Assembly (NCBI GenBank): GCA_035574235.1
Contig: DATLZA010000024.1
Span: 1 to 41,319 of the forward strand
Length of the DNA stretch: 41,319 nucleotides
Reading direction: 5' to 3'
Source of the DNA: Planctomycetota bacterium
GTDB taxonomy: Bacteria; Planctomycetota; MHYJ01; JACPRB01
Positions 678-16,113 of the stretch are shown here, piece by piece (position 1 is the stretch's first letter; the number at the start of each line of letters is the position of its first letter). A program made the translations under genes and the position numbers. The notes beneath the pieces are model-generated. The model worked only from the letters and a program-made list of their open reading frames with translations. It did no database searches and was not told where the DNA came from.

Positions 678-695
678 GGGCTCCCGTGCGCGAAA

Positions 696-724
696 ATTCT
701 ACCCCGCCATCCTGCCCCTGTCAA
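696..724 (-). promoter_or_regulatory. sigma70-type promoter of mglA
   Basis: On the minus strand, TTGACA (719-724) is separated by 17 bases from TAGAAT (696-701). The start codon at 677 follows 18 bases after the -10 box, with GGGAG as a short Shine-Dalgarno sequence just before it. The match to the vegetative consensus is close, so mglA can be transcribed independently of the roadblock gene upstream. Confidence 0.75.
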
Positions 725-747
725 CGCGCCGGCCGTCCGGCGCGACC

Positions 748-1098
748 CTAGGCGATGCTGCCGAGGTTGCGGATCTTCCGGGCCGCGGACGCGACCGCCA
801 GCATCGTGAAATCGATGTTGATCTGCTTGTCGAGCACCACCACAAGATACGCATCCCCCGTCTCGCTGAAGATCATCTTCCCGTACGTCGAATTGAAGAG
901 AAACCGCGAAAAGCTCTGCGCCCCCAGCTCCCGAAGCGAGGCATTGACCCTCTGAATGGTGTTGGAGGCGATCGCGGCCACCTGGTCGCTGTTGAGCGGC
1001 GGCGGGATCTCCGAAGCCACGACCACGCCGTCCCGCGTGACGACCATGGAGCCTTTGACGCCCAGCTCCTTGTTGAGGTTCAGGAGGACCTCTCTCAT
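748..1098 (-). CDS. Roadblock/LC7-domain protein, MglB-like
   Basis: A 116-residue protein consisting of a single roadblock/LC7 domain. The typical pattern is visible: an N-terminal helix, then the strand pair GSMVVTRDGVVVAS (residues 16-29), a central helix ending in the QRVNASLRELG segment, and the strands MIFSETGDAYLVVVL and later helix. Roadblock proteins of this type dimerise and act as GTPase-activating or regulatory partners of MglA-like GTPases, so the neighbouring mglA is the likely client. The start ATG at 1098 lies 9 bases after the stop of the TPR-roadblock gene, with GGGGG as weak ribosome-binding site, which indicates co-transcription. Identification as MglB itself, as opposed to another roadblock regulator, is inference from context. 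Confidence 0.88.
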   Translation of the reverse strand: MREVLLNLNKELGVKGSMVVTRDGVVVASEIPPPLNSDQVAAIASNTIQRVNASLRELGAQSFSRFLFNSTYGKMIFSETGDAYLVVVLDKQINIDFTMLAVASAARKIRNLGSIA

Positions 1099-1107
1099 GC
1101 GCGCCCC

Positions 1108-2220
1108 CTATCCCACCGAGAGGAACGAAACGAACTTCTCGATCGCGGCGTCCAGGTCCTCCTTCTTCGCCGGATGGTCCGCCAGGATCCCCACGATGTA
1201 CTGCTTCCACTCCGCGATCCCCACGCGCCCGATCGACGTATCGAGCTCGCCGCTGACGAACGTCCCGATGTCCATCTTCCGGGACGCGTCCTCGGAGCAC
1301 AGATACACGTCCTGCAGAAACCGCGCGAAACGCTCCTTGGAGAGCATCCCCCGCGTGTGGGAGGCCACCACCGCCCCGTCCCGCGTCAGGACCGCCGCGC
1401 ACTTGTAGCCGTTCATCGACTCGAACCCGACCAGGAACCCCTCGATCTTCATGGGGCTGACCACCGGAGCGGCGGCCCGCGGGAGCGGCTCGAAGAGGCG
1501 GGCGACCTCCTGCCCCTCCGGCGAAAGCGCGCGGCGCGATTCGATCTCCGCCAGCGCGTCGTCGAGGTTCGTGGCCGCCTTGGCCAGGTTCTCGGACACA
1601 AAGGCCAGAAGCTTCTCCGCCGTGTCGTCCCCCGGGTTGACCCGCAGCACCTGCTCGAGGATCGGCTTGGCCTTGTAGTACATCCCCGCCTCGGCGAAAA
1701 GGCGCGCCAGGCTCACCTGCGCCTTGTAGTTGGCGGGGTTGATCGAGGCCGCCTTCTCGAAGTGCCGGACGGCTTCCACGAAATCGTTGCCCACGAAATC
1801 CTGATGGAAGCGCTCCATCCGGATCTGGCCGGAGATCATGTGCAGTCCGTCGCTCGTGGGAAACTTGGCCAGCCCCTCGAGCGCCACCTCGAAAGCCTTC
1901 GTCCGGTTGGCCAGCTCCCGGTGGTAGATGTCCGCCAGGCGTTCGTAGTGGCTCTTCGAAGGCGACTTGCGCAGGATCCGGTTGAGCTCCTGGATCTCCG
2001 ACTGCAGCTGCAGCCGCCGGACGTTCTGATACGTCGTCTGGCACTTCTCGCTGTCCGGAAACTTCTCCACGGCCCGGCGGGCGACCTCCAGAGCCTTGGC
2101 TTCGTTGCCCGCCGCCATGTAGCGTTCCACGAGGGACACCATGTTGTGAGGAGTCGGGTTGGCCAGAACCTCCCGCTCCAGGCCCTCCAGCTGGCGGCGT
2201 TTCGTGTCGAACAGCCCCAT
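1108..2220 (-). CDS. TPR protein with C-terminal roadblock-like domain
   Basis: A 370-residue cytoplasmic protein with no signal peptide or membrane segment. Residues 1-240 are helical with TPR-like units, for example around 32-56, 92-118 and 146-198 (alternating small/large hydrophobic residues and NPANYKAQVSLARLFAEAG). Residues about 258-370 look like a divergent roadblock domain: GFLVGFESMNGYKCAAVLTRDGAVVAS repeats the strand-turn-strand of the smaller roadblock protein downstream, then a helix and a closing strand pair. It is the first gene of the roadblock-mglA unit. A plausible role is a scaffold coupling the GTPase to an output by its TPRs; this is inference. Its own promoter lies upstream, and a GGAGGGAAGG ribosome-binding site precedes ATG 2220. 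Confidence 0.75.
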   Translation of the reverse strand: MGLFDTKRRQLEGLEREVLANPTPHNMVSLVERYMAAGNEAKALEVARRAVEKFPDSEKCQTTYQNVRRLQLQSEIQELNRILRKSPSKSHYERLADIYHRELANRTKAFEVALEGLAKFPTSDGLHMISGQIRMERFHQDFVGNDFVEAVRHFEKAASINPANYKAQVSLARLFAEAGMYYKAKPILEQVLRVNPGDDTAEKLLAFVSENLAKAATNLDDALAEIESRRALSPEGQEVARLFEPLPRAAAPVVSPMKIEGFLVGFESMNGYKCAAVLTRDGAVVASHTRGMLSKERFARFLQDVYLCSEDASRKMDIGTFVSGELDTSIGRVGIAEWKQYIVGILADHPAKKEDLDAAIEKFVSFLSVG

Positions 2221-2242
2221 CCTTCCCTCCGGTCTCCTGAGG

Positions 2243-2272
2243 AGTCTACCCCACGATTTCGGGGAGTGTCAA
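2243..2272 (-). promoter_or_regulatory. sigma70-type promoter of the TPR-roadblock-mglA unit
   Basis: Minus strand TTGACA (2267-2272), an 18-base spacer and TAGACT (2243-2248). The spacer contains a small inverted repeat (CCCC...GGGG). The transcript would have a leader of about 15 bases with a strong purine-rich ribosome-binding site before 2220. Confidence 0.7.
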
Positions 2273-2285
2273 AATTTTGTCCGGG

Positions 2286-5200
2286 TCAGTTCAGCTCGAT
2301 GGCGTAGAGGATCTCCTCCACGCTGAAATAGACATGCTTTCCATGAACCCGAGGGGTGCTGCGGATCTTCCCCCGCCCGCGGTACCTCCAGAGGAGGCTC
2401 CGCGAAAGGGCGTCGAACGCGTAAAAGGACTGGTCCTCGCTGCCGAAGAGAACCACCGTCCCGTGGGCCGCCGCTCCTCCCAGAATCGGCCCGCCCGTTT
2501 CGAAATTCCCCACGAGCGTCCCTCGCGCCGCGTCCAGGAAATACATCCGCCCGTTGCGACCGCCGGCGAAAACCAAGTCCCCCACCCGCACCAGGGGCGC
2601 CGAGACCCGGGAGGGCACCTCCCGCTTCCAGAGCAGCCGCCCTTCCGCCGCCTCCACGGCCCAGAGCGTTTGGGCCGACGTCGCCGCATAGACGACCCCC
2701 TCCCCCGCCCCCGTCGCCTCGAAGTCCGTCTCGGCGCGCACCCGCCAGACGTCCCCTCCATCCGCCCCCCCGCGCAGCCGCAGGATCGTCCCGTCGTCGC
2801 AGGCGGCGATCGCCCCGTCGGCCGTCGGCACCAGATCGCCCCGGCACTCGCCCGGCAGCTCGCGCTTCCAGAGCGGCATCCCGGTCGCCGCGTCCACCGC
2901 GTGGAGCATCCGGTCGGCCGTGCACACGTAGAGGATCTTGCCGTCGGGCGACAGGGCGGGCGCCCCCGACAGGCGTTCCCCCGTGGGATACCTCCAGGCG
3001 ATCCGCCGGCCGTCCGCCGGCGCCGGACGGATGGCGTAGACCGCGTGGCCGCTGGTACCCGCGTAGAGAAGGTCGCTTCCGGCCACGGGCATCCCTTCGA
3101 TGGAACCCTCCAGGGACTGGTACCACTCGATCACCGGCCGGGAACGCAGGCGCAGCGCGAAAAGCCGGTCGCGCGCGCCGGCGTAGAGCGTGTCCCCGAG
3201 GACCGCCAGGCCGCCCGAGACGGTAATCCCGAGCGGCAGCACCCACGCCTCGCTCTTCTCGGTCAGCTCCACCTTGAGGCGCCCGACCGTCTTGTCCCGC
3301 ACCTCGCGCTCGACGCTCACGTACCCGGGCCGCTCGAAGAGAAACCGCACGACCTCCCCGGATTTCATCCTGTGGCGCAGGGGCTGCTCCCCGGTCTCTC
3401 CCAGCACCATCCCCGAAGGACGCAGCGTCACGCGGACGCCCGGCGGGAAGGTCGCGATCTCGATGGGATAGCGCGCCTCGCGCGCCGCGGGGGTATTGGG
3501 ATAGTCCGTGATGAGCTTGTCGATGAGCAGCGCCGCCTCGCGCACCTTTCCTTCCTTTTCGAGCTCGTCGGCCTTGACCTTGAGCTGGAGGGAGTCGCTC
3601 AGGTAGCGCTCCAGGGCGCTGGCGAGTTCCTCGGCGCGCAGAAGGAAGGCGCGGTCGCGGTTGGCCTCCGCCAAGTCCCGCAGCTCGCGCGCGCGTTTCA
3701 GGGCCAGCTCGGGACTCCGCAGGCGCTCCTCTTCGATCCAGGCGGACAGCTCGCGCATGCGCTCCTGGTCCCGGCGGCGGCGTTCCTCCTCCTGAGCGCT
3801 GCGCTCCTGAGTCCATCCGCGCCGGTGCGCCTCCAGCCGCTGCAGGAATTCCCCGGCCCGGGCGCGCTGCCAGGGACTCCGGGCGGATGACAGGAACCCT
3901 TCCACCTCCCGCCGCGCCTCGTCGTACTCGTGCCTCTCCAGCCGCGGCTCCGCGCCGGCCAGGATCTCGGTCAGACGGCGCCGCTCCCGGATCTCGATCC
4001 AGGCGCCGAGCGCCGCGGCGCCCGCCGCCAGAAGGACCGCCAGAACGGCCGCCGGTTTGCCCCAGCGCCGGCGCTTCCGGGCCGCCGGGGGCGGAAGCAC
4101 CGTCGAGGGCCGCCGCATCTGAATCTCGGCCAGCTCGCGCTCGACCGCCTCCGCCTTCCGCGGATCCACCGGCATGTTCTTGCGGATGTAGGTGAGGTCC
4201 TCCTCGAGCTCGCGCCGCAGATTCATCCGGTGGAGGACCTTCGCGCGCAGGATCCGGAAGTCGAGGTCCGCCGGGTCGGCCGCCACGATCCGGTCCGCCA
4301 GCCCCCGCGCCCGCACGTAGTCCGTCGCCGCCATGAGCGCCTGTCCCACCAGCTCCCGGGCCAGCCGCTTGCCCTCCTCCAGGTTTCCGGCCGCGGCGTG
4401 GGCCTCGAAGAGCAGGTACCGGATTTCGCCGTCCTCGGGCGCCAGGCGATGGGACTGGCCGAGCAGATCGAGCGCCCGATCCACATCCCCCTTCTGCAAG
4501 GCCAGCCGCCCGGCCTTCGCGTACGTCGACGCGGCCTCTTTGGAGAGGCCTTCATTTTCGAGCACGCGGGCCACGCCCGCGATCACCTTGGGATCGTCCG
4601 GGGCCTGCGCCGCCGCGGCCATGTAGAGCCGGAGCCCCTTCTCCCGCTGCCCGTCGGCCAGGCACCGGGCGGCCGCCTGAAGCATCTCCTCGACCGTCAG
4701 AAGGCGGATCCGCCCGCGGTCGAAGAGATCCACCAGCCCCTTGCACACCTCGAACCGCGAAACGCCGGTCTGTTCCACAACCTCCGCCACCGAACGGCGG
4801 CCGTCGAGGAGCCGGTAGACGCGCTTGAGGGCGTCCGGCGCCACCGCATCCTCCGCCGCCCGGTCCCGGTCGGAGAGGAAGACGAAGATCGAATCCATCG
4901 AGGGAATCTTCTGGTTGATGAGATTCCACTCGTCGGCGCGGCGCACCGCCTCGAGGAGCAGGCCGTTGACGTCGAACGAGAGCTGCGTGGCGTGCATCTC
5001 GGGGTCGGTCAGACTCTCCGACGGGGGCCCCTCGACGAATTCGAACGAAGCCTTCTTCCAGAGGAAAAGGTCGTAGATTTCCTCTTCGATCTGGGCGCGG
5101 ACGACCTGTTCGATCTCCTCGGCCGTGAGGGCGCCGTTCTCCACGAGCGCCTCTCCCAGCTTTTTCTTGGAGATGCGCGTGCTTTCCAGGGCCTCGTTGA

Positions 5201-5420
5201 GCGCGTCCTCGCTGATCTTGCCGGCTCGCACGAGCATGTCTCCGAGCCGCATGCCCTTGCGGCGACCGGTCGAAGTGAGCTTGACCCCCGAAGGGCCGAA
5301 GTAGATGCACTTTCGGCTCTCGCCGTCCTGGACGATGAGGGTCCCCTCCTTCTGGCTCATCGAGATCATCTGGAAGACCTCGGCCAGGCCGATGGTGGAG
5401 AGGTCGCCCTTGAAGGACAT
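2286..5420 (-). CDS. DUF4388-TPR-TM-PEGA-PQQ beta-propeller protein
   Basis: A 1044-residue multidomain membrane protein. In order: a DUF4388 (PATAN-type) domain at 1-175, with embedded helical pairs of the MshEN/GspE-N type (RLGDMLVRAGKIS, KLGEALVENGALT); a winged-helix-like stretch at about 190-240; TPR helices at about 245-420; a single membrane helix at 455-475; a charged coiled coil to about 640; a PEGA domain at 652-720 (IATFPPGVRVTL); and PQQ-type propeller blades at 725-1044, with repeated motifs such as YAGTSGHAVYAI, HAVDAATGMPLWKRE and YFLDAARGTLVG. The N-terminus should be cytoplasmic and the propeller outside the membrane. DUF4388 proteins are often linked to gliding or polarity GTPases, which fits mglA nearby. 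A sensor or scaffold role is inferred. The start at 5420 fits the promoter spacing. Confidence 0.85.
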   Translation of the reverse strand: MSFKGDLSTIGLAEVFQMISMSQKEGTLIVQDGESRKCIYFGPSGVKLTSTGRRKGMRLGDMLVRAGKISEDALNEALESTRISKKKLGEALVENGALTAEEIEQVVRAQIEEEIYDLFLWKKASFEFVEGPPSESLTDPEMHATQLSFDVNGLLLEAVRRADEWNLINQKIPSMDSIFVFLSDRDRAAEDAVAPDALKRVYRLLDGRRSVAEVVEQTGVSRFEVCKGLVDLFDRGRIRLLTVEEMLQAAARCLADGQREKGLRLYMAAAAQAPDDPKVIAGVARVLENEGLSKEAASTYAKAGRLALQKGDVDRALDLLGQSHRLAPEDGEIRYLLFEAHAAAGNLEEGKRLARELVGQALMAATDYVRARGLADRIVAADPADLDFRILRAKVLHRMNLRRELEEDLTYIRKNMPVDPRKAEAVERELAEIQMRRPSTVLPPPAARKRRRWGKPAAVLAVLLAAGAAALGAWIEIRERRRLTEILAGAEPRLERHEYDEARREVEGFLSSARSPWQRARAGEFLQRLEAHRRGWTQERSAQEEERRRRDQERMRELSAWIEEERLRSPELALKRARELRDLAEANRDRAFLLRAEELASALERYLSDSLQLKVKADELEKEGKVREAALLIDKLITDYPNTPAAREARYPIEIATFPPGVRVTLRPSGMVLGETGEQPLRHRMKSGEVVRFLFERPGYVSVEREVRDKTVGRLKVELTEKSEAWVLPLGITVSGGLAVLGDTLYAGARDRLFALRLRSRPVIEWYQSLEGSIEGMPVAGSDLLYAGTSGHAVYAIRPAPADGRRIAWRYPTGERLSGAPALSPDGKILYVCTADRMLHAVDAATGMPLWKRELPGECRGDLVPTADGAIAACDDGTILRLRGGADGGDVWRVRAETDFEATGAGEGVVYAATSAQTLWAVEAAEGRLLWKREVPSRVSAPLVRVGDLVFAGGRNGRMYFLDAARGTLVGNFETGGPILGGAAAHGTVVLFGSEDQSFYAFDALSRSLLWRYRGRGKIRSTPRVHGKHVYFSVEEILYAIELN

Positions 5421-5430
5421 GGCTTTTTAA

Positions 5431-5459
5431 AGAGTACCCCCCCGGAAGGGGAAATCCAA
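5431..5459 (-). promoter_or_regulatory. Putative promoter of the DUF4388-PQQ gene
   Basis: Minus strand TTGGAT (5454-5459), 17-base spacer, TACTCT (5431-5436), then 10 bases to the ATG at 5420. No Shine-Dalgarno sequence is visible in those 10 bases, so the transcript would have a leader of only a few bases. The hexamers are weaker than those of mglA. Confidence 0.45.
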
Positions 5460-5544
5460 GCCCCTCCGGCGGAACCGTAAAGTTTATCGGCCGCGCGGCG
5501 CCGGCGGCGCAGGGGTTCCCGAAAAGATGGAAAGCCGAAAGGCC

Positions 5545-5931
5545 CTAAGGCGACCGAAGGTCGGCCTCGGCGCCCGCCCAGAAGTCTTCGAACTCCACGC
5601 CCAGCTCGAACTCCGGTCCGGTCCCGAAGCGAACGGGCCGGCACAGGGCGCCGATGCCCCGGTAGCGGGGCGTCCGAAAAGCGAGGCGGATCCGGAACGG
5701 GCGGATCGGAAGAAAAGGCTTCCGGAGGCGCAGGCGGCCCAGGCGGGCTCCCTTCAGGCTGACGTCGCGGATGACCGCCGTGCCCCGCGTGAAGACCTTT
5801 CCATCCGAGGCGAGGATCTCCACATCCGCGGGGATGCGGACGTCGTTGCGCATCCACCGCCGCAGGTAATTGCGGCCCTCCGAGACGCGGGCGGCCGCCG
5901 CGTGGCTTTGCGGCGAAACGGACGGCGCCAT
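5545..5931 (-). CDS. PilZ-domain protein
   Basis: A 128-residue single-domain protein of the PilZ family, which binds cyclic di-GMP. The two ligand motifs are present: RNDVR (RxxxR, residues 28-32) and DVSLKG (DxSxxG, 56-61), and the C-terminal strand FELGVEFEDF is typical of the fold. I prefer the ATG at 5931 to the one at 5940, because GGAGG lies 9 bases before 5931 but touches 5940 directly. The gene follows ppdK by about 70 bases on the same strand. It could link cyclic di-GMP to the pilus or MglA functions nearby, which is inference. Confidence 0.82.
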   Translation of the reverse strand: MAPSVSPQSHAAAARVSEGRNYLRRWMRNDVRIPADVEILASDGKVFTRGTAVIRDVSLKGARLGRLRLRKPFLPIRPFRIRLAFRTPRYRGIGALCRPVRFGTGPEFELGVEFEDFWAGAEADLRSP

Positions 5932-6003
5932 GGCCTTCATCCTCCTTCGCGCCTCTCTCCGCTCAGGGGATCGGCCGGTGCTCCGCTTCCCGGCCGGTCG
6001 TTT

Positions 6004-8745
6004 CTACCGGCGTCCGCTCGCGGAAACCGTCCTGCGACGCGGTTTCCCCCGGGACGCCTTCTTCCCGCCCCCGGCTTCGCGTTCGCGCAACACCGCCTGC
6101 GCGGCCGCCAGGCGCGCGATCGGCAGGCGGTAGGGGGAACACGAAACGTAATCCAGACCCGCCCCGTGGCAGAAAATGACGCTGTCGGGGTCCCCTCCGT
6201 GTTCGCCGCAGATGCCCACCTTGAGGTTGGGACGGGTCGCCCTCCCCTTCTCGACCGCCCCGCGAACCAGGGCGCCCACGCCGACCGGATCGAGCGTCAC
6301 GAAGGGATCCACCGGCAGGATCTTGCGGTCCACGTACACGCTCAGGAACTTCCCGGCGTCGTCCCGCGAGAAGCCGAACGTCATCTGCGTCAGGTCGTTC
6401 GTGCCGAACGAGAAGAATTCCGCCTCCTGGGCGATCTCGTCGGCCACGACCGCCGCCCGGGGCACTTCGATCATCGTGCCCACGAGGTACTTGACCCGGC
6501 GGCCGCGCCGCTTGAAGACCTCCTCGGCGGTGCGGACGACGACTTCCTTCTGATGCCGCAGCTCGTTGACGTGCCCCACCAGGGGAATCATGATTTCGGG
6601 GACGACGTCCCCGCCCACGTCGAGGGCCGCCTCAAAGATCGCCTCCGCCTGCATGGCGGTGATCTCCGGGTAGAGGATCCCCAGCCGGCAGCCCCGCAGC
6701 CCCATCATGGGGTTGAACTCGTGAAGCTCGTTCACGCGGCGCAGCAACCGCTCGTTCTCGGCGACGTTTTCGCCCTTGGCGATCTTGACCATGAGCTCCT
6801 CGCGCTTGGGCAGGAACTCGTGAAGCGGGGGATCGAGGGTCCGGATCGTCACGGGCTTCCCGCGGAGGGTTTCGAAAAGTCCCTTGAAGTCCTCGCGCTG
6901 GAACGGCAGGAGCTCGCGGAGCGCGGCCTTGCGCTCCTCCTCCGTCGTCGCCAGGATCATCCGCACGACCACGGGGAGGCGCTCCTCGGCGAAGAACATG
7001 TGCTCCGTGCGGCACAGGCCGATCCCTTCCGCCCCCAGAAGCGCGGCCATGCGGGCGTCGCGGGGGACGTCCGCGTTGGCCCGCACCCGAAGGCGCCGGA
7101 CTTCGTCGGCCCACTTCATGAACGTGTCGAAGTATCCGAAGATCTCGGAGTCCTTCGGGTCCATCTTCCCGGCCAGGACCTGCAGAATGTCGCTCTCGCG
7201 CGTGGGGACGTCTCCCAGAAGCACCTCGCCCGTCGTGCCGTCGATCGAGACGTAGTCGCCCTCCCGGACCGTGAGGTCCCCCACGGAGAACCGGCGGCCG
7301 TGCTCGTCCACCTTGAGGGCCGAGCAGCCGACGACGGAGGGTTTTCCCATCTGCCGGCCGACGACGGCGGCGTGACTGGTCATGCCGCCCGTGGCGGTCA
7401 GAACTCCCTGGGCGGCCGCCATGCCGGCGATGTCGTCCGGGCAGGTTTCGGCCCGGACCAGAAGCACCCGATCGCCTTTCGCAGCCATTTCCACGGCCCG
7501 GTCGGCGTCGAAGACGGCCCGGCCCGCCGCCGCGCCCGGCGAGGCGTTCAGGCCCTTGGCCAGCACGCGGTGCTCCCTTCGCCGCTGGGGATCGAAGATC
7601 GGGTGAAGGAGCTGATTGAGCTGGAGCGGATCGACGCGAAGGAGCGCCTCCTCCTTGGTGATCAGCTTCTCCTTCACCATGTCCACCGCGATCCGCACCG
7701 CCGCGTGGCCCGTCCGCTTGCCGCTGCGGGTCTGAAGCATGTAGAGCTTCTCGTCCTGGACGGTGAACTCGAAGTCCTGGACGTCCCGGTAATGCTTCTC
7801 CAGCCGCTTGGTGATTTGGACGAGCTGGTCGTAGACCTTCGGAAGCGTGTCCTTGAGGGCGGAGATGGGCTGGGGCGTCCGGACGCCCGCCACGACGTCC
7901 TCGCCCTGGGCGTTGATGAGGAACTCCCCGTAGAAGCGGTTCTCGCCCGTCGAAGGATCGCGCGTGAAGCCGACGCCCGTTCCCGACCGGTCTCCGGAGT
8001 TTCCGAAGACCATGGCCTGAACGTTGACGGCCGTTCCCAGATCGTCCGGAATCTTGTTCATGCGCCGGTAGGTGATGGCGCGGGGGTTTTCCCAGGACTT
8101 GAAGACCGCGTCCCGGGCCAGGCAGAGCTGCTCCCAGGTGTCCTGGGGAAACTCCCGGCCGGCGCGCTCGCGGAAGAAGGTCTTGAACTCCTCGCAGAGT
8201 TCCTTGAGATCCTGGGCGGAAAGATCCACGTCGTTGCGGACTCCGCGTTCCTCTTTCTTGCGGTGCAGGATCTTCTCGAAATCCCCCTTGGGGACGCCGA
8301 AGACCACGTCGGCGAACATCATGATGAAGCGCCGGTAGCAGTCGTAGGCGAAGCGCTCGTTGTTGGTCTGCCGGGCCAGGCCGGCGACGGTTTCATCGTT
8401 GAGGCCCAGGTTGAGGATGGTGTCCATCATGCCGGGCATGGAGAACTTCGCGCCCGAGCGCACGGAGACGAGGAGGGGTTTCTTCGGATCCCCCAGGCGG
8501 CATCCGGTCGCCTGCTCGAGCCGCGCCAGGTATTTCCGCATGAGCGGATCCAGCGCCTTGGGGACTTTCTTGCCGTTGCGGTAGAACTCGGTGCAGACCT
8601 CGGTGGAGATCGTGAAACCGGGGGGCACGGGAATGCCCGCGCGGCTCATCTCGGCGAGTCCCGCTCCCTTGCCGCCGAGGATGTCCTTCATGTCCCCGCG
8701 GCCTTCGGCCTTCCCGTGGCCGAAGAAGTAGATCATCTGCTTCAT
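6004..8745 (-). CDS. ppdK: Pyruvate, phosphate dikinase
   Basis: A 913-residue full-length pyruvate phosphate dikinase, which interconverts pyruvate, ATP and phosphate with phosphoenolpyruvate, AMP and pyrophosphate in the cytoplasm, serving gluconeogenesis or pyrophosphate-dependent glycolysis. The N-terminal ATP-grasp begins with GHGKAEGRGDMKDILGGKGA, the swivelling phosphohistidine domain has GGMTSHAAVVGRQMGKP with the catalytic His, and the C-terminal barrel has the PEP site GICGEHGGDP and the catalytic Cys in YVSCSPYRLPIARLAAAQ. Length and motif order agree with the bacterial enzyme. The start is one base after the stop of the small secreted-protein gene, so translation is probably coupled. 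A short basic C-terminal tail (KKASRGKPRRRT) is an addition to the usual end. Confidence 0.97.
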   Translation of the reverse strand: MKQMIYFFGHGKAEGRGDMKDILGGKGAGLAEMSRAGIPVPPGFTISTEVCTEFYRNGKKVPKALDPLMRKYLARLEQATGCRLGDPKKPLLVSVRSGAKFSMPGMMDTILNLGLNDETVAGLARQTNNERFAYDCYRRFIMMFADVVFGVPKGDFEKILHRKKEERGVRNDVDLSAQDLKELCEEFKTFFRERAGREFPQDTWEQLCLARDAVFKSWENPRAITYRRMNKIPDDLGTAVNVQAMVFGNSGDRSGTGVGFTRDPSTGENRFYGEFLINAQGEDVVAGVRTPQPISALKDTLPKVYDQLVQITKRLEKHYRDVQDFEFTVQDEKLYMLQTRSGKRTGHAAVRIAVDMVKEKLITKEEALLRVDPLQLNQLLHPIFDPQRRREHRVLAKGLNASPGAAAGRAVFDADRAVEMAAKGDRVLLVRAETCPDDIAGMAAAQGVLTATGGMTSHAAVVGRQMGKPSVVGCSALKVDEHGRRFSVGDLTVREGDYVSIDGTTGEVLLGDVPTRESDILQVLAGKMDPKDSEIFGYFDTFMKWADEVRRLRVRANADVPRDARMAALLGAEGIGLCRTEHMFFAEERLPVVVRMILATTEEERKAALRELLPFQREDFKGLFETLRGKPVTIRTLDPPLHEFLPKREELMVKIAKGENVAENERLLRRVNELHEFNPMMGLRGCRLGILYPEITAMQAEAIFEAALDVGGDVVPEIMIPLVGHVNELRHQKEVVVRTAEEVFKRRGRRVKYLVGTMIEVPRAAVVADEIAQEAEFFSFGTNDLTQMTFGFSRDDAGKFLSVYVDRKILPVDPFVTLDPVGVGALVRGAVEKGRATRPNLKVGICGEHGGDPDSVIFCHGAGLDYVSCSPYRLPIARLAAAQAVLREREAGGGKKASRGKPRRRTVSASGRR

Positions 8746-8746
8746 G

Positions 8747-9247
8747 TCACGTTCCGCAAATGCACGCGCGCCGGAGCGGCGCGTAGTCCCAGTCCGGCGG
8801 GTAGGCGAAGTGCCACCCGTCGGCGCGTTTCACCTGATGCCGATGCCACGCCAGAGCCCGGTCCTTGAAGTACTCCAGATCCTCGGGCGAAAGATCCAGG
8901 ACCCAGATCGTCATGAGGCGGGCGATCCGAAGGTCGCGGGAGAACCCGAACTCCGGAGCGCACACGCGCAGCCGTCCCGCCGCCGCGTCGGCCCGGTGCA
9001 CGCGCAGCGCCGCCAGAAGCCGTCCGGACGTCTCGTAGGCGGTCAGCGCCGTCACGAACGCCTCGTAGGGCAGGCGCCGGCGCGCGTCGCCGGAAAGAAG
9101 CTCGTGGGCCTTGCCGAACTCGCCCGCGCGGACGAGCTCCTGGAAGACGCGGAACGCCTCCGCGGGATCCCGCAGGCGCTCCCGCAAGGGGCGATCCTGC
9201 GCCGGAAAAAAGCCGCCCGCCAGAAGCGCCAGAAAGAGCCCGCTCAT
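8747..9247 (-). CDS. Small secreted protein of unknown function upstream of ppdK
   Basis: The protein has 166 residues if it starts at ATG 9247. I chose this start because it gives a signal peptide (MSGLFLALLAGGFFPAQ) and lies 9 bases after a clear -10 box; an upstream ATG at 9310 would place the promoter inside the gene. The middle part (AGEFGKAHELLSGDARRRLP, then YEAF) resembles the start of NTF2/SnoaL-like folds used in many lipoproteins and secreted proteins, but I cannot assign a family. The C-terminus has a CIC pair. It heads a two-gene transcript with ppdK, although no functional link is evident. Confidence 0.6.
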   Translation of the reverse strand: MSGLFLALLAGGFFPAQDRPLRERLRDPAEAFRVFQELVRAGEFGKAHELLSGDARRRLPYEAFVTALTAYETSGRLLAALRVHRADAAAGRLRVCAPEFGFSRDLRIARLMTIWVLDLSPEDLEYFKDRALAWHRHQVKRADGWHFAYPPDWDYAPLRRACICGT

Positions 9248-9256
9248 GGGGGCGTG

Positions 9257-9285
9257 ATTGTAGACGCGGCGGGCGGGGCTGTCAA
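9257..9285 (-). promoter_or_regulatory. sigma70-type promoter of the secreted protein-ppdK operon
   Basis: Minus strand TTGACA (9280-9285), 17-base spacer, TACAAT (9257-9262), then 9 bases to ATG 9247. The transcript would begin about two bases before the start codon. It is divergent from the pilB promoter 24 bases away. Confidence 0.75.
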
Positions 9286-9309
9286 CGAACCGCCGAAGGC
9301 CGTTTCCCA

Positions 9310-9338
9310 TTGACGATCCCGGCCGGCGGCGCCATAAT
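9310..9338 (+). promoter_or_regulatory. sigma70-type promoter of pilB, predicted leaderless
   Basis: TTGACG (9310-9315), 17-base spacer, CATAAT (9333-9338). The start codon at 9346 follows 7 bases after the -10 box, where the transcription start is expected, and there is no ribosome-binding site between them. Confidence 0.75.
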
Positions 9339-9345
9339 TTTTCGC

Positions 9346-11064
9346 ATGACTCCGCCCCGCAAGCTCCTGGGCAAGATTCTCGAAGAGATGAAGGTCGTCT
9401 CCGCCGCCCAGATCAAGGCGGCGCTGCGCAAGCAGATGCAGGAGTCGGGCAAGCGCCTGGGCGAGATCCTGGTGGAAATGCAGGCGGCCACTCCGGCCCA
9501 GATCACCGAGGCCCTGGCGCGCCAGCACGACCTGCCCTTCGTGGATCTGACGGCCTTCAAGCCCAGCCCCGAGGCGGTCAAGGCCGTGCCCCGCAACGTC
9601 TGCCAGGAGCACACGATCTTCCCGGTCAAGACGAACGGCAAGACCGTCACGATCGCGATCTCGGATCCGCTGGATCTGATGACGCTCGAGAACCTCAAGT
9701 TCATCCTCAACCGAGAAGTGACGTGCGTCCTGGCCCCGCGGGACGCGATCCAGCAGTCGATCGAGCGCTTCTACGGAAACCGCGAGACGTCGGCCATCTC
9801 GGACGCCATCGAGCAGGCCTCCAACACGGAGGTCCGCGTGCGGGGCGCCGAGACGTCGTCGGCCGCCGACGACGTCCGGGACGACGACGCTCCCGTCATC
9901 AAGTTCGTCCAGGTCATGATCGCCGAGGCGGTCAAGCAGCGCGCCAGCGACATCCACGTCGAGCCCATGGAGGATCGCCTTCGCATCCGGTACCGGATCG
10001 ACGGCATCTGCCGGGAAGTTCAGGCCCCGCCCAAGCGGCTTCAGGGGGCGATCCTGTCGCGCATCAAGATCATGGCGGACATGGACATCGCCGAGAAACG
10101 CAAGCCCCAGGACGGGCGGATCCGGATCAGCGTGGAAGGGCGCGATCTCGACATCCGCGTGTCGGCGCTTCCGGCCACGCACGGCGAATCGATCGTCATG
10201 CGGCTCCTGGACAAGGAGAAGGGCCTGGTGGGCCTGGAAGAGCTGGGGTTCCACGCGACCGACTACAAGCGTTTCCAGAGCCTCATCAAGCGGCCCAACG
10301 GGATCATCCTCGTCACCGGCCCCACCGGAAGCGGAAAAACGACGACCCTCTACGCCGCGCTCAAGGAGCTCAACAAGCCCAACGTCAAGATCATCACGGC
10401 GGAAAACCCCGTCGAGTACAACATCGCCGGGATCAACCAGGCCCAGGTGAAGGCGTCGATCGGGATGACCTTCCAGCGGATCCTGAGGGCCATGTTGCGG
10501 CAGGCTCCCAACATCATCCTGGTGGGCGAAATCCGCGACGCGGAGACGGCGGAGATCGCCATCCAGGCGGCGCTCACGGGGCACCTGGTCTTTTCCACGC
10601 TTCACACGAACGACGCCCCCGGGGCCCTCACGCGCCTCATCGACATGGGGGTCAAGCCCTTCCTCGTGGCCTCGTCGATTCAGGCGGTGATGGCCCAGAG
10701 GCTCGTGCGAATCCTCTGCCCCGCATGCAAGGAGCCGGATCCCGACCCCGATCCGGTTCTCCTTCAGGCGCTGAGCATCCGCCCGGAAGACCTCAAAGGC
10801 AGAAAAATCTGCCGTCCGGTGGGATGCGACCAGTGCAAGAATACCGGCTACCGCGGCCGCAAGGGCATCTTCGAGCTCATGGAGATGAATTCCACGATGC
10901 GGGAGATGGTCTTCCGCAAGGAACCCGTCCAGAAGATCAAGGAGCAGGCCCGCCTTTCCGGCATGGTCACCCTCCTGGAGGACGGCGTGCGCAAGGTGCT
11001 CGACGGAATCACGTCCCTCGAGGAGGTCATGACGATCACCCATCGCGAGGACATCACCTACTGA
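9346..11064 (+). CDS. pilB: PilB/GspE-family secretion-assembly ATPase
   Basis: A 572-residue hexameric ATPase of the type IV pilus or type II secretion family, which drives assembly of pilin-like filaments from the cytoplasmic face. The N-terminal MshEN/GspE-N domain (residues 1-150) has the LGEILVE and VDLTAF elements. The core has Walker A GPTGSGKT (325-332), the Asp box, Walker B IILVGEIRD (390-398) and the His box STLHTNDAP (417-425). The zinc-binding tetracysteine element is present (CPAC at 458-461 and CDQC at 494-497), as in PilB and GspE. The start at 9346 is set by the promoter. PilT-type pilT follows 44 bases downstream, so pilus extension is more likely than type II secretion; no pilin or inner-membrane platform gene is in the window. 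Confidence 0.93.
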   Translation: MTPPRKLLGKILEEMKVVSAAQIKAALRKQMQESGKRLGEILVEMQAATPAQITEALARQHDLPFVDLTAFKPSPEAVKAVPRNVCQEHTIFPVKTNGKTVTIAISDPLDLMTLENLKFILNREVTCVLAPRDAIQQSIERFYGNRETSAISDAIEQASNTEVRVRGAETSSAADDVRDDDAPVIKFVQVMIAEAVKQRASDIHVEPMEDRLRIRYRIDGICREVQAPPKRLQGAILSRIKIMADMDIAEKRKPQDGRIRISVEGRDLDIRVSALPATHGESIVMRLLDKEKGLVGLEELGFHATDYKRFQSLIKRPNGIILVTGPTGSGKTTTLYAALKELNKPNVKIITAENPVEYNIAGINQAQVKASIGMTFQRILRAMLRQAPNIILVGEIRDAETAEIAIQAALTGHLVFSTLHTNDAPGALTRLIDMGVKPFLVASSIQAVMAQRLVRILCPACKEPDPDPDPVLLQALSIRPEDLKGRKICRPVGCDQCKNTGYRGRKGIFELMEMNSTMREMVFRKEPVQKIKEQARLSGMVTLLEDGVRKVLDGITSLEEVMTITHREDITY

Positions 11065-11107
11065 CCCGCCGGGGCGCCGCGTCCCCCGGGCTTCCCAGGA
11101 GGATATC

Positions 11108-12187
11108 GTGGTCGAACTCAACAAACTGCTTCAGCTCGTCGTCGACAAGCGCGCCAGCGACCTTCACCTCACCGTGGGACTGCCTCCGACGGTGCGCCTG
11201 AACGGAAGCCTCCGGCCGCTCAACCTCCCGCCGCTCACGCCCGACGAGACGGTTGCCTTCATGAAGGCGATCACGCCGGAGCGCATCCAGCAAGAGCTCA
11301 AGGAGAAGGGGGGCGGCGACTTCGGGTTCGCCTACGAGAAAAAAGCCCGCTTCCGGGTCGCCGTCTACATGCAGCGCGGAAACGTGGGGATCTCCCTGCG
11401 GCTGATCCCCTCGAAGCTCTTGAGCTTCGAAGAGATCGGGCTTCCCCCGTCGGTGAAAAACCTTCTCTTCCGCCCGCGCGGACTCATCCTCGTCACCGGC
11501 CCCACCGGCAGCGGCAAGACCACGACCCTGGCTACGATGATCGACTTCATCAACCAGGAAAACGACTGCCACATCATCACGATCGAGGATCCCATCGAGT
11601 ACTACCACGAGCACAAAAAGTCGATCATCACCCAGCGCGAGCTCGGAAACGACGTCGGATCCTTCGCGGAGGCCCTGCGCCGCGGCCTGCGCATGGACCC
11701 GGACGTCATGCTCGTGGGCGAAATGCGCGACCTCGAAACGATCCAGGCGGCCATCACGGCGGCCGAAACGGGCCACCTCGTCTTCGGAACGCTTCACACG
11801 ACGGGCGCGGCGCGCACGATCAACCGCATGGTGGACGTCTTCCCCGTCGAGCAGCAGGAACAGATCCGCGCGCAGCTCTCCCAGGCGCTCCTGGCGGTCA
11901 TCTCCCAGCAGCTCCTGCCCCGCGCCGACGGCTCCGGGGTCGTGGCCGCCTTCGAGATCATGATCATCAACTCCGCCATCGAGCACATGATCCGCGAAAA
12001 CCAGACCCACAAGATCACCAGCGCGATCCAGACCGGAGCCCAGCAGGGGATGATCCTTCTGGACGACTTCCTCTACAACCTCTTCCTCCAGAAGAAGATC
12101 ACCTACCAGACGATGATGATGGCGGCGCAGAACCCCTCGGACCTCGAACAGAAGGTCAAGGAGTACTCGTACGCCGCGCGGAAGTAG
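11108..12187 (+). CDS. pilT: PilT-family twitching/retraction ATPase
   Basis: A 359-residue PilT-type ATPase, which depolymerises type IV pili. It begins with the PilT hallmark LVVDKRASDLHLTVG, has Walker A GPTGSGKT (131-138), the Asp box ITIEDPIEYYHEH, Walker B DVMLVGEMRD and the His box GTLHTTGAARTINR. Length is normal for PilT. The GTG start at 11108 is supported by AGGAGG seven bases upstream. It is co-transcribed with pilB. A second PilT-like gene lies at 29.5-30.6 kb, so the two may divide labour as PilT and PilU do. Confidence 0.93.
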   Translation: MVELNKLLQLVVDKRASDLHLTVGLPPTVRLNGSLRPLNLPPLTPDETVAFMKAITPERIQQELKEKGGGDFGFAYEKKARFRVAVYMQRGNVGISLRLIPSKLLSFEEIGLPPSVKNLLFRPRGLILVTGPTGSGKTTTLATMIDFINQENDCHIITIEDPIEYYHEHKKSIITQRELGNDVGSFAEALRRGLRMDPDVMLVGEMRDLETIQAAITAAETGHLVFGTLHTTGAARTINRMVDVFPVEQQEQIRAQLSQALLAVISQQLLPRADGSGVVAAFEIMIINSAIEHMIRENQTHKITSAIQTGAQQGMILLDDFLYNLFLQKKITYQTMMMAAQNPSDLEQKVKEYSYAARK

Positions 12188-12197
12188 CGCGCGCTAC
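12184..12197. other. Perfect 14-base palindrome over convergent stop codons
   Basis: GTAGCGCGCGCTAC spans the stop of pilT and the stop of the lipoprotein gene. It could fold as a short hairpin in either transcript, but there is no T-tract on either side, so it is at best a weak or factor-assisted bidirectional terminator. Confidence 0.35.
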
Positions 12198-12883
12198 TCC
12201 AGGTGGCCGTGCGGCCATTCGGCCTCGACCTCGCACCGCCAGCACCATTCCGTCCGGCCATGGCGGTGGCCGACCCCGGCGTCCCGGTGGCATTCGCGGC
12301 AGTACTGAGTCACGCCGTGGACGTGATCGGGCGCGTGCTCGACCTCATGCTCCAGGCACAGGCGCGTGACGTCGCAGCGATGACCCGCCCCCGCCTCCCG
12401 CAGGCACGTCCGGCAGTAGACGGTCTTCCCGTGGATGTGATTGGCCCCGGCTTCCTGGTTGCACGTACCGCAATAGGTCGTGATGCCCCGGACCGTCTGC
12501 GGCGGAACCATGCGGTGACACCGCTCGCAGCCCCGCGGCCCCAGAAGCGATCGCCGGTCCGTCCGGCACGTCAGACACGTGCGGGCATCCAGACACTCGT
12601 GCCGGGCCGCCATGAGCGTATCGTCGTTCGGGCAGTGCCAGACGACTTCGTGCAGATGACGCGCCCCCGCCTCGCGCTCGCAGAGGACGCACGGGTACGT
12701 CAACCCGCACCGGTGGCCTTCATAAACCCTGAGGTTGCAACGGTGGCACCAGCCGGCCTCCCGCGCCGGAGAGCGCTCGCGCTCCTCGAAGACCTTGGCC
12801 GCCGGCGGAAGATCCCCATCCGAAGCGCCTCCCGCGCAACCCAGCACGGCCCAAAGCCCCACCACCCCGATTCGATGCTTCAT
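12194..12883 (-). CDS. Lipoprotein made of tandem Cys/His metal-binding-like repeats
   Basis: A 229-residue predicted lipoprotein: the signal MKHRIGVVGLWAVLGC ends in a VLGC lipobox (Cys16), followed by a short linker. From residue 46 to the end it consists of about eight units with a period near 19 residues, of the form C-x2-C-x2-E-A-G-x2-H-x-[HC]-G-x-T-x-[YW]. Examples start at CVLC (65), YCGTC (137), YCRTC (156), YCRECHRDAGVGHRHG (194) and WCWRC (213). Each unit offers four potential ligands (two Cys, two His or His/Cys), so zinc or another soft metal is the likely partner. I do not recognise the family. A promoter lies upstream, and GGGGGA precedes the ATG at 12883. It is separated from the ubiquitin-like operon by a terminator. 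Confidence 0.7.
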   Translation of the reverse strand: MKHRIGVVGLWAVLGCAGGASDGDLPPAAKVFEERERSPAREAGWCHRCNLRVYEGHRCGLTYPCVLCEREAGARHLHEVVWHCPNDDTLMAARHECLDARTCLTCRTDRRSLLGPRGCERCHRMVPPQTVRGITTYCGTCNQEAGANHIHGKTVYCRTCLREAGAGHRCDVTRLCLEHEVEHAPDHVHGVTQYCRECHRDAGVGHRHGRTEWCWRCEVEAEWPHGHLE

Positions 12884-13340: not shown

Positions 13341-13907
13341 CTACCGGACGAAGAAAAAGCCGCAAGGGACCACCCGCCCGCGCTTCCACTGAAAAAACCC
13401 CAGCTCCTCCTGGCACGGGTCCACGACGAGCGCGAACATCCAGGGAAGGTTGAAGAAGTGCTGGTGAATGAAAAGGTCCATTCCCGAAAGGAACACCCCA
13501 TAACCCGGATGCGTGTGATGCCAGCCCACCAGGAGCTTTTCCCCGTACCGGTCAATCCTCTCCCGCGTGATCGCGCTCCACGAGTCGTGCGTGAACCGGA
13601 AACTCGCCGGCCCGTTTCGATAGTGCCGGGCCCGAATGTACCCCCCGATCTCCACATACGGGAGCCCCTGGTGCGCGTAAAGATCCCCGACGAACACCCC
13701 TCCCAGCTCGTGCCGCAGGTCGCTCAGCGACCACGACCAGACGTCCCGGAGAATCGCCTCCGTCAGGAAGATGCCCAAATCCCCCGCCTCGATGACGCCT
13801 TTGGGCTCGACGCGCCGCGACGGGTCCCGGCTGGGAATGAGCTTCTCGATGGGCTGGACGTACTCCAGGCCTCCGGAAACCTCGATCCCCTCGTCCCCCG
13901 CCGACAT
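13341..13907 (-). CDS. JAMM/MPN-family deubiquitinase-like metalloprotease
   Basis: A 188-residue protein with a complete JAMM zinc-protease signature: Glu67 in HELGG, H131-T-H133-P, then Ser141 and Asp144 (HxHP-x6-S-x2-D). JAMM enzymes cut the bond after the C-terminal glycine of ubiquitin-like proteins. In this operon it would remove the Ubl from targets or process it. The N-terminal 40 residues are an extension before the core domain; the rest matches a single MPN domain. The ATG at 13907 is 6 bases after the E2 stop, so it is translated from the same transcript. No signal peptide is present, so it acts in the cytoplasm. Confidence 0.9.
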   Translation of the reverse strand: MSAGDEGIEVSGGLEYVQPIEKLIPSRDPSRRVEPKGVIEAGDLGIFLTEAILRDVWSWSLSDLRHELGGVFVGDLYAHQGLPYVEIGGYIRARHYRNGPASFRFTHDSWSAITRERIDRYGEKLLVGWHHTHPGYGVFLSGMDLFIHQHFFNLPWMFALVVDPCQEELGFFQWKRGRVVPCGFFFVR

Positions 13908-13913
13908 GAGCCG

Positions 13914-14594
13914 CTATTCGATGATGAGCAGATCGTCCCGCCCCGGCGCCGGACGAGGAACCGGCCGGGAAGGCAGCGGCGGAACCGGCGTGTTCTCGTC
14001 GATCACCAGAATCTCCTCGCCGTCCGCCGCGGCGCGGCCGATCGGAGGCGCCTCGCGCGCAGGCGCCGCCTCCAAGCGGATGACGTTGTCCCCCACCGTG
14101 CGTGCCAGCCGGTCCCTCAGAGGCCGCCCGTCCAGAGGAAACTCATACTGCGTCTGAGCCTCGCACCACCGCGCCGCCGCGTAGTTGTAGGCGCTCTTGG
14201 AATCGTAGTTCGCGTACCGCACCATGTCCCACAGCATCTCGCAGAGATCCGCCAGCCCCAGACTCGGCACCCAGTGGGTCGAATATCCCCCCAGACACAC
14301 CGCGCCCACCGCGGAAATGTTGGGATGATAAATGCTCGTCAGCCATTGCAGATCCGGCCGGCTCCGCGGATAGTCGATGCCCAGGCGGATCTCCACCCGA
14401 TGGACGTCCGCCGGCTCGACCGGCTCGGACTCGCTGCGCCGCATGAGCCCCCGCCCCCGGAAGGTCACCAGATACCGCTCCGGAGGATCTCCGAAGGCCT
14501 GGTAATCGAAAATCGTGGACTGCTCTTTCAGGCGCCGGAGCGCTTCGGCGTCCGTCCTGAGGCGCCGGCCCCGGGGCGTGTCGAAAAAGCCCAT
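13914..14594 (-). CDS. E2 (UBC)-like ubiquitin-conjugating enzyme
   Basis: A 226-residue protein with a UBC-like core. The segment Y89-H90-P91-N92 followed by Cys100 in GAVCLGG, and then W-V-P (108-110) and the helix LADLCEMLWDMVRY, reproduces the order of eukaryotic E2 enzymes (HPN, catalytic Cys, WxP, following helix). Residues 63-75 (ADVHRVEIRLGIDYPRSRP) match the E2 strand ending in YPxxxP. It should accept the Ubl from the E1-like protein on Cys100 and pass it to targets. After about residue 175 comes a disordered-looking tail with the acidic-hydrophobic peptides EEILVIDE (193-200) and DDLLIIE (220-226). ATG 14594 lies 4 bases after the Ubl stop, indicating coupling. HPN in a bacterial E2 is notable. 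Confidence 0.88.
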   Translation of the reverse strand: MGFFDTPRGRRLRTDAEALRRLKEQSTIFDYQAFGDPPERYLVTFRGRGLMRRSESEPVEPADVHRVEIRLGIDYPRSRPDLQWLTSIYHPNISAVGAVCLGGYSTHWVPSLGLADLCEMLWDMVRYANYDSKSAYNYAAARWCEAQTQYEFPLDGRPLRDRLARTVGDNVIRLEAAPAREAPPIGRAAADGEEILVIDENTPVPPLPSRPVPRPAPGRDDLLIIE

Positions 14595-14598
14595 GCCC

Positions 14599-14877
14599 CT
14601 ACCCCGCCACGATCTCCGGATAAACGATCAGGTGATCGCCGTCCTTGACCCCGGCCTGCGGAAGCGTCTGATTCTCGAGAAGGCGCTTGCCCCCTTCCTT
14701 GTGGTCCAGACTGTAGCTCATGGGCGTCCCGTCCGGCGCCGTGACCGGAAGCTGCATCTTGGTGATGATGTTCGGGATGATGCGCTTGACTTCGACGGTC
14801 GGCGAGATCCGGGCCTTGACGCTCTTGGCTCCGGTCTGGTCGAGAAAGGTGACCTGGATCCCTTCGCCTTCGGGCAT
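14599..14877 (-). CDS. Ubiquitin-like modifier ending in glycine
   Basis: A 92-residue protein with the spacing of a beta-grasp fold: strand IQVTFLDQTGAKSV (7-20), a second strand and helix (VEVKRIIPNIITKMQLP, 28-44), a third strand at MSYSLDHK, and the ubiquitin-like ending TLPQAGVKDGDHLIVYPEIVAG. The chain ends directly in Ala-Gly with a stop codon at 14599, so the C-terminal glycine needed for adenylation is exposed without processing. YukD-like proteins are the nearest bacterial relatives I can name. It sits between E1 and E2 genes, which supports a modifier role. AGGAGGAGG precedes ATG 14877, the strongest ribosome-binding site in the operon, consistent with a need for high amounts. Confidence 0.85.
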   Translation of the reverse strand: MPEGEGIQVTFLDQTGAKSVKARISPTVEVKRIIPNIITKMQLPVTAPDGTPMSYSLDHKEGGKRLLENQTLPQAGVKDGDHLIVYPEIVAG

Positions 14878-14919
14878 GGACGGCCTCCTCCTGCTTCTAC
14901 CCCCTAAGACGACCCCTGT

Positions 14920-14925
14920 ATTGTA
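14920..14925 (-). promoter_or_regulatory. Possible internal -10 element for Ubl-E2-JAMM
   Basis: TACAAT on the minus strand lies 42 bases before the Ubl start, in the 78-base gap after the E1 stop. No convincing -35 hexamer is seen. It could allow Ubl, E2 and JAMM to be expressed above the level of E1. Confidence 0.35.
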
Positions 14926-14955
14926 GCGTTACGACCCCGGACGCCGAACCCCCTT

Positions 14956-16113
14956 TCACTCGCATCTCAACGCCTCCTCGCGATCCGCCGCCAGGCGCGC
15001 CCATACGCCGCCTCCCCCGCGCGTGACCACCCGCACGACGTCGAAGGGCGCCACCCCCGATTCCCGCAAGGGGCGCGCGGCGCGCGGGTCCCCCCGCTCG
15101 ATCTCGTGAACGATCCGCGCCCGCGCCGGGCCTCCGCACCGCGGACACGATCCCGCCTCGCGTTCCGAAACCCGCGCCCGCGGCCGGCCCACCTCCCGCC
15201 GCGCGCCGCACGACGGGCATTCGATCGAAACCACAAGGTCCCGGTCGAGAAGGATCCTCTCCCCGCCCGTGGCCTCGAGGAGCGCCTCCGCCGGATCCTC
15301 CGCGCTGACGGGCACGTCCGCCACGTTCCCGTACGTCTCGTGCGACAGGCAATCCGCGCGGCGAGGAAAACGCGTCACGTAGAACGTGTTGGCCGCCCCA
15401 TTGAAGACGATCGCCGATCCCTCCCGCACCGGAAGCCCGTGCAGAATCTTGAGCGCCTCCTGAACCTGAAGCCCCGCCACGATCGAGGCCGTCGTGGGCG
15501 CGGTCGGCACCTTGCCCTCGGCCACGTCCCCGCGCCCGAGCATCGGACACGAGTACCGCAGGTTGATGAGCGCATAGTCCCGTTCCGTCATGGCGCACTC
15601 GTAACAGGACCCGTCGGGCGGAACGAAAACCTTCACCACGCCCATGAGTTCCTGAATCGCCCCGTCCACCCAGGGGCGCCCCGCCTTCCAGCACTGACGG
15701 TTGACCCACAGCCGCGCCTCGCGGTTGTCCAGCCCCCCGATCACCACGTCCATCGCGGCGAAGAGCCCCAGCCCCGCGTCCGTGCGCACGTCCCCGAGAA
15801 TCCCCCGCACGCGCACCTCGGGATTGATCGCTTTCACCGCCCGGGCGGCGCACTCGCTCTTGGGCCGGCCGCGGTCGGACTCGCGGTATAGAACGCTCCG
15901 GGCGAGATTGGCCGCCTCGACGACGTCCCGATCGATCACGTAAAGGCGGCCGACCCCGAGAAGCGCCAGGTTCTTCAGGACCTCGCTTCCCAGCGCCCCC
16001 GCGCCCACGACCAGAATCCGCGCCTCGCGCAGCCGTTCCTGGCGCCACCAGGGAATCAGGCGCAGGCTCGCGTAACGGTCGGACTCGTCGATGAGAAACG
16101 GTTCCTCCGCCAT
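14956..16113 (-). CDS. E1/ThiF-like Ubl-activating enzyme with C-terminal zinc ribbon
   Basis: A 385-residue member of the ThiF/MoeB/E1 superfamily, which adenylates the C-terminal glycine of a ubiquitin-like protein. The nucleotide motif GAGALGSE (37-44), the acidic turn DRDVVEAANLARS (61-73) and the KSECAARAVKAINP segment are conserved. A cysteine pair CYEC (170-173) follows the core, and Cys189 in YSCPMLG lies in the crossover region where E1 enzymes carry the thioester cysteine. The stretch KVPTAPTTASIVAGLQVQEA is typical of the family. After residue 290 there is an additional ribbon with CPSC (299-302) and CPRC (323-326). I chose ATG 16113 because a -10 box ends 7 bases before it; a longer upstream frame would run into the divergent gene. 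It is likely the first gene of the conjugation operon. Confidence 0.9.
   Translation of the reverse strand: MAEEPFLIDESDRYASLRLIPWWRQERLREARILVVGAGALGSEVLKNLALLGVGRLYVIDRDVVEAANLARSVLYRESDRGRPKSECAARAVKAINPEVRVRGILGDVRTDAGLGLFAAMDVVIGGLDNREARLWVNRQCWKAGRPWVDGAIQELMGVVKVFVPPDGSCYECAMTERDYALINLRYSCPMLGRGDVAEGKVPTAPTTASIVAGLQVQEALKILHGLPVREGSAIVFNGAANTFYVTRFPRRADCLSHETYGNVADVPVSAEDPAEALLEATGGERILLDRDLVVSIECPSCGARREVGRPRARVSEREAGSCPRCGGPARARIVHEIERGDPRAARPLRESGVAPFDVVRVVTRGGGGVWARLAADREEALRCE

Follow-up and report, generated by a model that had tools for sequence, protein, structure and literature searches.

The 41,319-nucleotide stretch of planctomycete DNA studied here (positions 1 to 41,319 of contig DATLZA010000024.1, assembly GCA_035574235.1; hereafter the window) carries an operon of four minus-strand genes that encode, in the order of transcription, an E1-like activating enzyme, a ubiquitin-like modifier (Ubl), an E2-like conjugating enzyme and a metalloprotease of the JAMM/JAB type (Table 1, coordinates of open reading frames). 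An initial annotation made from the sequence had described four same-strand genes forming a complete Ubl conjugation and deconjugation set, with the Ubl, E2 and JAMM genes 4 to 6 bases apart. We found all four on the minus strand, separated by 78 nucleotides (E1-Ubl), 4 nucleotides (Ubl-E2) and 6 nucleotides (E2-JAB), and the four Pfam families together with the conserved catalytic residues described below bear out the completeness of the set. The arrangement is not due to chance, since dozens of genomes carry the entire operon. Within the operon, repeat searches gave matches at chance level only.

Table 1. Coordinates and properties of the operon genes, their parts and the downstream lipoprotein gene in the window.
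Feature	Position	Strand	Properties
E1-like activating enzyme	14956..16113	-	385 aa; Pfam ThiF, E=2e-57
Ubiquitin-like modifier, YukD family	14599..14877	-	92 aa, C-terminus VYPEIVAG-COOH; Pfam YukD, 8.7e-15
E2, whole gene	13914-14594	-	Pfam UQ_con, 2.2e-13
E2 (UBC) core, HPN motif and catalytic Cys100	14091..14594	-	residues 1-168
Disordered E2 tail, two SIM-like motifs, GEEILVIDE and RDDLLIIE-COOH	13917..14090	-	AlphaFold2 pLDDT, motif search
JAMM/JAB metalloprotease (predicted deconjugase)	13341..13907	-	188 aa; Pfam JAB, 6.2e-5; H131, H133, D144, E67, S141
Predicted lipoprotein, Cys/His-rich, downstream of JAB gene	12194..12883	-	counterpart beside JAB in genomes G002 and G004

The E1 begins with a ThiF adenylation domain, has a crossover-loop cysteine that is the candidate catalytic residue (Cys189), and continues through a zinc ribbon of four cysteines (C299/C302/C323/C326) to a small domain at the C terminus. 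In an alignment of 25 homologues, C170/C173, C189, C255/H258 and the four ribbon cysteines were invariant; the extra zinc cysteines noted initially are thus shared by all of them. By position, Cys189 aligns with the crossover-loop cysteine of ThiF/UbaA-type enzymes. The AlphaFold2 (AF2) model had a mean predicted local distance difference test score (pLDDT) of 91, with a low-confidence loop at residues 190-196 directly after C189, and its top Foldseek matches were ThiF, MoeB, UBA3 and UBA5. At the level of sequence profiles, the best solved relatives were UBA7/UBA1 and ThiF. The alignment to UBA3 covered the full-length chain (430-436 columns), including the C-terminal domain, but with a root mean square deviation of 12-13 Å. 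We take it that the E1 of bacterial systems combining a RING protein with a YukD-type Ubl, E1, E2 and JAB carries a C-terminal UFD-like domain that presents the E2; because the superposition on UBA3 is poor despite the whole-chain alignment, such a domain is possible, not proven, in the E1 modelled here.

The other two enzymes have complete active sites. The E2 residues H90-P91-N92 and C100 were invariant among 23 homologues, all of the active type, and the JAMM residues E67, H131, H133, S141 and D144 were invariant among 24, so that the metal ligands are all present as initially annotated. The E2 core was modelled with pLDDT values mostly above 90 and matched RAD6/UBE2A/UBE2S best in Foldseek, in agreement with the predicted UBC fold, and Ubc13 was its best sequence match in the PDB. 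For the JAB profile the best PDB match was the Caldiarchaeum Rpn11-like protein 6fjv (2.4e-22), ahead of eukaryotic Rpn11. The closest solved relatives of the operon proteins thus include the JAMM of the Caldiarchaeum ubiquitin operon and E1 and E2 enzymes of the eukaryotic ubiquitin pathway. E2s that have lost the catalytic cysteine also occur. Operons of the Pirellulales type (L068, L100, L103, L123 and similar loci) have both JAB and E2 in duplicate, the additional E2 being catalytically dead, and in genome G045 a lone E2 homologue (L027), around which no operon was found, has tyrosine in place of the cysteine and a zinc-ribbon-like C-terminal tail.

The compact 92-residue Ubl was assigned to the YukD beta-grasp family by profile and showed in addition a below-threshold Pfam match to the SUMO-like Rad60-SLD (6.6e-4). 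Its matches in the PDB were weak and included ubiquitin and archaeal ubiquitin-like proteins, the single-domain ones at E values of about 0.01. Gly92 is the last residue of the protein. Conservation of this glycine, proposed beforehand as a check of the initial annotation together with the UBC fold and the conserved C100 of the E2 described above, was observed in 76 of 77 close homologues, many of which carry further residues after it (commonly 1 to 13), as ubiquitin precursors do. Of the four proteins, the Ubl stands out as much the best conserved, as one would predict for a modifier that has many partners: mean identity to its 77 homologues was 77%, compared with 57% for E1, 54% for E2 and 44% for JAB. 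We searched the window genome for a Ubl paralogue and found none that was convincing.

The operon itself encodes no RING-type E3, as had been stated from the sequence; this holds for the operon only, since the same genome contains, on contig C123, a Prok-RING_1 protein above the Pfam cut-off, which has a hydrophobic segment near its N terminus and the RING at its C terminus. Other members of the window's family encode proteins like it. Whole genomes and named genomes served as sources of homologues, and contigs were searched with a profile of seven closer E2 sequences. Among the named loci of at least 12 kb, 46/49 had all four genes, 35/49 had Prok-RING_1 nearby and 32/49 had all five components including the RING. 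A genome-wide count of Prok-RING_1 matches at E<=1e-4 in 392 planctomycete genomes showed that E2 and RING co-occur: RINGs were found in 30 of the 39 genomes with an E2 versus 17 of the 353 without (Fisher p=5e-25, related genomes not being independent of one another). A genome that lacks a RING in cis may still encode many in trans, with at least 32 in genome G039, at least 20 in a Wallbacteria metagenome-assembled genome (MAG) and at least 11 in a Deltaproteobacteria MAG. High numbers of scattered matches, at least about 14 to 32 per genome, accompany RING-less operons in G039, G164, G191, G203, G178, G224 and the genome of locus L096. At L025:6880-8888, two RING proteins lie inside the operon next to an FHA membrane protein; in one of them the RING is joined to a trypsin-like protease and to a DUF4190 segment.

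The E2 core is followed by a tail, as initially annotated, which the AF2 model shows as disordered (pLDDT about 47-76). Between genomes, these tails had no evident similarity except for a short motif. The window E2 has GEEILVIDE internally and RDDLLIIE at its C-terminal end, and relatives have, for example, VDDVVFID, GDEIFFID or DDDLLVIKE. Expressed as a pattern ([DE], up to two residues, hydrophobic-hydrophobic-[FILVMY]-[ILV]-[DE]-end), the C-terminal motif was found in 51 of the 94 gene calls that contain an E2, and the 904 other calls from these loci gave no match. It was present in 46 of 71 tails, compared with a mean of 0.017 in shuffled tails, and internal copies were present in 40 of the 71 (shuffle mean 10.4). 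Catalytically dead second E2s in other operons often retain the motif. Tails of other kinds were also observed, namely a long Cys-rich, zinc-finger-like array without SIM-like motifs in the clade of L025, L075, L077 and L084, and one resembling a zinc ribbon in L079/L081.

An acidic-flanked hydrophobic core in a disordered region is the mark of SUMO-interacting motifs (SIMs), which bind the beta2-alpha1 groove of SUMO-like proteins, and the E2 tail has this feature. By analogy, the tail motif probably binds the Ubl non-covalently. A serious alternative, to which we give somewhat less than even odds, is that the tail docks another partner, such as the E1, the JAMM protease, a RING or a membrane factor. 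Hydrophobic-acidic peptides can bind various folds, and, unlike a typical SIM, the motif ends the chain and bears a free carboxylate. Binding to the Ubl, however, accounts better for the several motif copies per tail and for the charges in the two clades compared, where tail and Ubl are of opposite sign (Ubl segment +2.5 and tail -2.6 in the window's clade; -6 and +3.3 in the second, with EVRISIKP in its basic tail). We know of no earlier description of a SIM-like motif in an E2 tail, and we believe that this motif and the quantitative association with RING proteins are what is new here.

Taken together, these data led us to favour, with a probability of about 0.78, a system for reversible protein modification by the Ubl, in which E1 and E2 would form a relay, a RING would act in trans as E3 and the JAMM protease would remove the modifier. 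The ThiF-type E1 would adenylate the C-terminal Gly92, and the Ubl would pass to Cys189 of the E1 and then to Cys100 of the E2. From there it would be attached to amino groups of target proteins, helped by the membrane-anchored RING encoded elsewhere in the genome, and the JAMM protease would take the tag off; in relatives with residues after the glycine, it probably also matures the Ubl precursor. The E2 tail motif may keep Ubl, whether free or already attached, close to the enzyme. As to its role, the system would most likely serve regulated modification of proteins located at the cytoplasmic membrane rather than proteasomal degradation. Proteins with FHA, PP2C-like, GAF-cyclase and Ser/Thr kinase domains are neighbours in related loci, and these signalling domains suggest a function in regulation.

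Several observations weigh against this proposal. Nine of the 39 E2-bearing genomes lack a RING at the threshold used (two of them have weak matches), the RING is unlinked to the operon in the window's family, and in 17 genomes Prok-RING_1 is present with no E2 detected, so that these RING proteins are not always partners of the system. As regards the tail, the pattern was defined after the sequences had been inspected, the E2s descend from a common ancestor, and the reversal of charge amounts in effect to one comparison, between two clades only. In L023/L135, the Ubl ends in IIAA plus nine residues, without the glycine, and its contig yielded no E1; possibly this system has decayed or been rewired.

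On a more tentative note, bacteria could have a SUMO-like recognition layer, in which SIM-type motifs of the E2 tail bind the system's own Ubl non-covalently. One E1, one Ubl and usually one E2 would then serve RING ligases that are dispersed and in some genomes much increased in number, to about 20 to 30 matches. To our knowledge, an organisation with a single E1 and Ubl, many dispersed RING ligases and SIM-type recognition has so far been thought typical of eukaryotes. If this idea is true, non-covalent, SIM-type reading of a modifier is not exclusive to eukaryotes.

We considered it unlikely that the Ubl is a degradation tag whose conjugates are handed to an ATP-dependent protease. The kinship of the JAMM protease with Rpn11-type enzymes would fit such a role, as would a Prok-RING_1 reading frame in G039 that lies directly downstream of hslV-hslU (C378:9577-11638, L180), a single case that may point to a connection with HslVU proteolysis. 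However, the operon has no linked receptor or unfoldase, and a proteasome-family gene was not found in two operon-bearing draft genomes. Proteasomal degradation in particular is unlikely because the only proteasome-family (PF00227) gene of the window genome is HslV beside HslU, as in Escherichia coli.

It is likewise improbable that the operon serves anti-phage defence in the manner of Bil, by attaching its Ubl to structural proteins of infecting phages. Bil and the cyclic-oligonucleotide-based anti-phage signalling systems (CBASS) employ the same kinds of enzyme, the E1 matched the PADLOC E1-E2 models and, weakly, BilD, and the distribution within the phylum is patchy, the E2 profile matching 39 and the Ubl profile 33 of the 392 genomes. 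Against this, neither the Ubl nor the E2 had a PADLOC model match at E values up to 1, and the E1 lacks the BilD pseudodimer layout. Among the ten flanking genes run through PADLOC, the single match (mad8 to PilT) was a generic ATPase match. We therefore rejected a defence-island setting, in line with the housekeeping neighbourhood initially described. Moreover, in 4/5 genomes of the window's family the operon, whole or in part, has neighbours of similar kinds (arginase, TPR, PilT or lipoprotein genes), which suggests vertical inheritance within the family. The relatives at family level are MAGs of groundwater Planctomycetota. Loci further removed were found in the named isolates Singulisphaera acidiphila, Paludisphaera soli and Aquisphaera insulae, in many Pirellulaceae and Isosphaeraceae, and in single MAGs labelled Abditibacteriales, Wallbacteria and Deltaproteobacteria.

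Finally, that the Ubl is a ThiS/MoaD-like sulfur carrier and the E1 a ThiF/MoeB enzyme of cofactor or tRNA-thiolation metabolism agrees with the ThiF-like sequence and fold of the E1 but is very improbable, given an active-type E2, a complete JAMM and associated RINGs foreign to such pathways, a YukD-type Ubl ending in AG and not GG, three further ThiF-family genes in the window genome, and no metabolic sulfur gene among the flanking genes examined.

E1/JAB operons with Ubl and E2 components have been classified as types 6a-6e (Iyer et al, 2006; PMC1779556). The initial annotation had likened the operon to the Bil and Bub groups, which did not prove to be its closest relatives. Bil (BilABCD) likewise encodes Ubl, E1, E2 and JAMM together. 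BilD combines an inactive and an active adenylation domain (the IAD-AAD pseudodimer) with a Cys domain (PMC11354881), whereas the 385-residue E1 of the window is a single ThiF unit, and the Ubl is not of the two-domain BilA kind. With its Ubl and E2 also unmatched by PADLOC, the operon was not counted as Bil. Bub, which we take to be equal to type 6d, shares an operon of Ubl, JAB, E1 and E2. The E2s of type 6d lack the canonical histidine (Iyer et al, 2006; PMC1779556), which is kept in the window E2 and invariant among its homologues. No alpha-helical fifth protein, a further feature of this group, was seen beside the operon genes, and membership was rejected. CBASS type II (6a-6b) was set aside because E1 and E2 are separate genes here, with no E2-E1 fusion. 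We likewise rejected a part for this YukD-family Ubl in type VII secretion, since the flanking genes that were examined included none of the EssC/WXG100 type and the Ubl is encoded together with E1, E2 and JAMM.

Operons related to the archaeal Ub/E1/E2/RING/Rpn11 cluster have been reported for Actinobacteria, Planctomycetes and Acidobacteria, according to a review citing Burroughs et al (2011) (PMC4197634). As far as that account describes it, the planctomycete RING/YukD-Ubl group (Burroughs, Iyer and Aravind, 2011) uses the same component families in the same phylum, and the window shares with it a YukD Ubl with the glycine, an HPN+Cys E2, a complete JAMM and a RING, here in trans. Because it fits this group and lacks the hallmarks of Bil, Bub and CBASS, we place the operon in this known kind of system, as its E1-Ubl-E2-JAB version with the RING in trans; it differs in this gene order and in the unlinked RING, which operon relatives carry in cis as Prok-RING_1. 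Compact Ub/E1/E2/RING/Rpn11 logic is also shared with the ubiquitin operon of Caldiarchaeum subterraneum, to whose Rpn11 the JAB is nearest; the window differs in its YukD-type Ubl ending in AG, its short single-ThiF E1 with a zinc ribbon and a RING outside the operon. The prediction of RING-linked bacterial Ubl systems reportedly dates from 2011, and the window adds a compact version of four genes, together with a probable E3, in which the modifier is far more conserved than its enzymes and the SIM-like E2 tail, as read from the sequence, would be a concrete new feature. Our literature search found no experimental study of a RING-linked bacterial Ubl system.

Some observations concern neighbouring genes. 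The predicted lipoprotein encoded downstream of the JAB gene contains repeated C-x2-C...H-x-H units, gave no match in a Pfam search and is 48-49% identical to counterparts adjoining JAB in G002 (L020) and G004 (L029); this Cys/His-rich protein is a possible neighbour of the Ubl system. In G002, a gene for a small protein with a single transmembrane segment (approximately L020:4685-5120, minus strand) lies between Ubl and E2; the window operon has no such gene. Positions 1-12187 of the window form a region of motility or surface genes adjoining the operon, with PilB-like and PilT-like ATPases, a DUF4388/TPR/beta-propeller protein and an MglA-like GTPase (1-677, recognised by its start sequence only).

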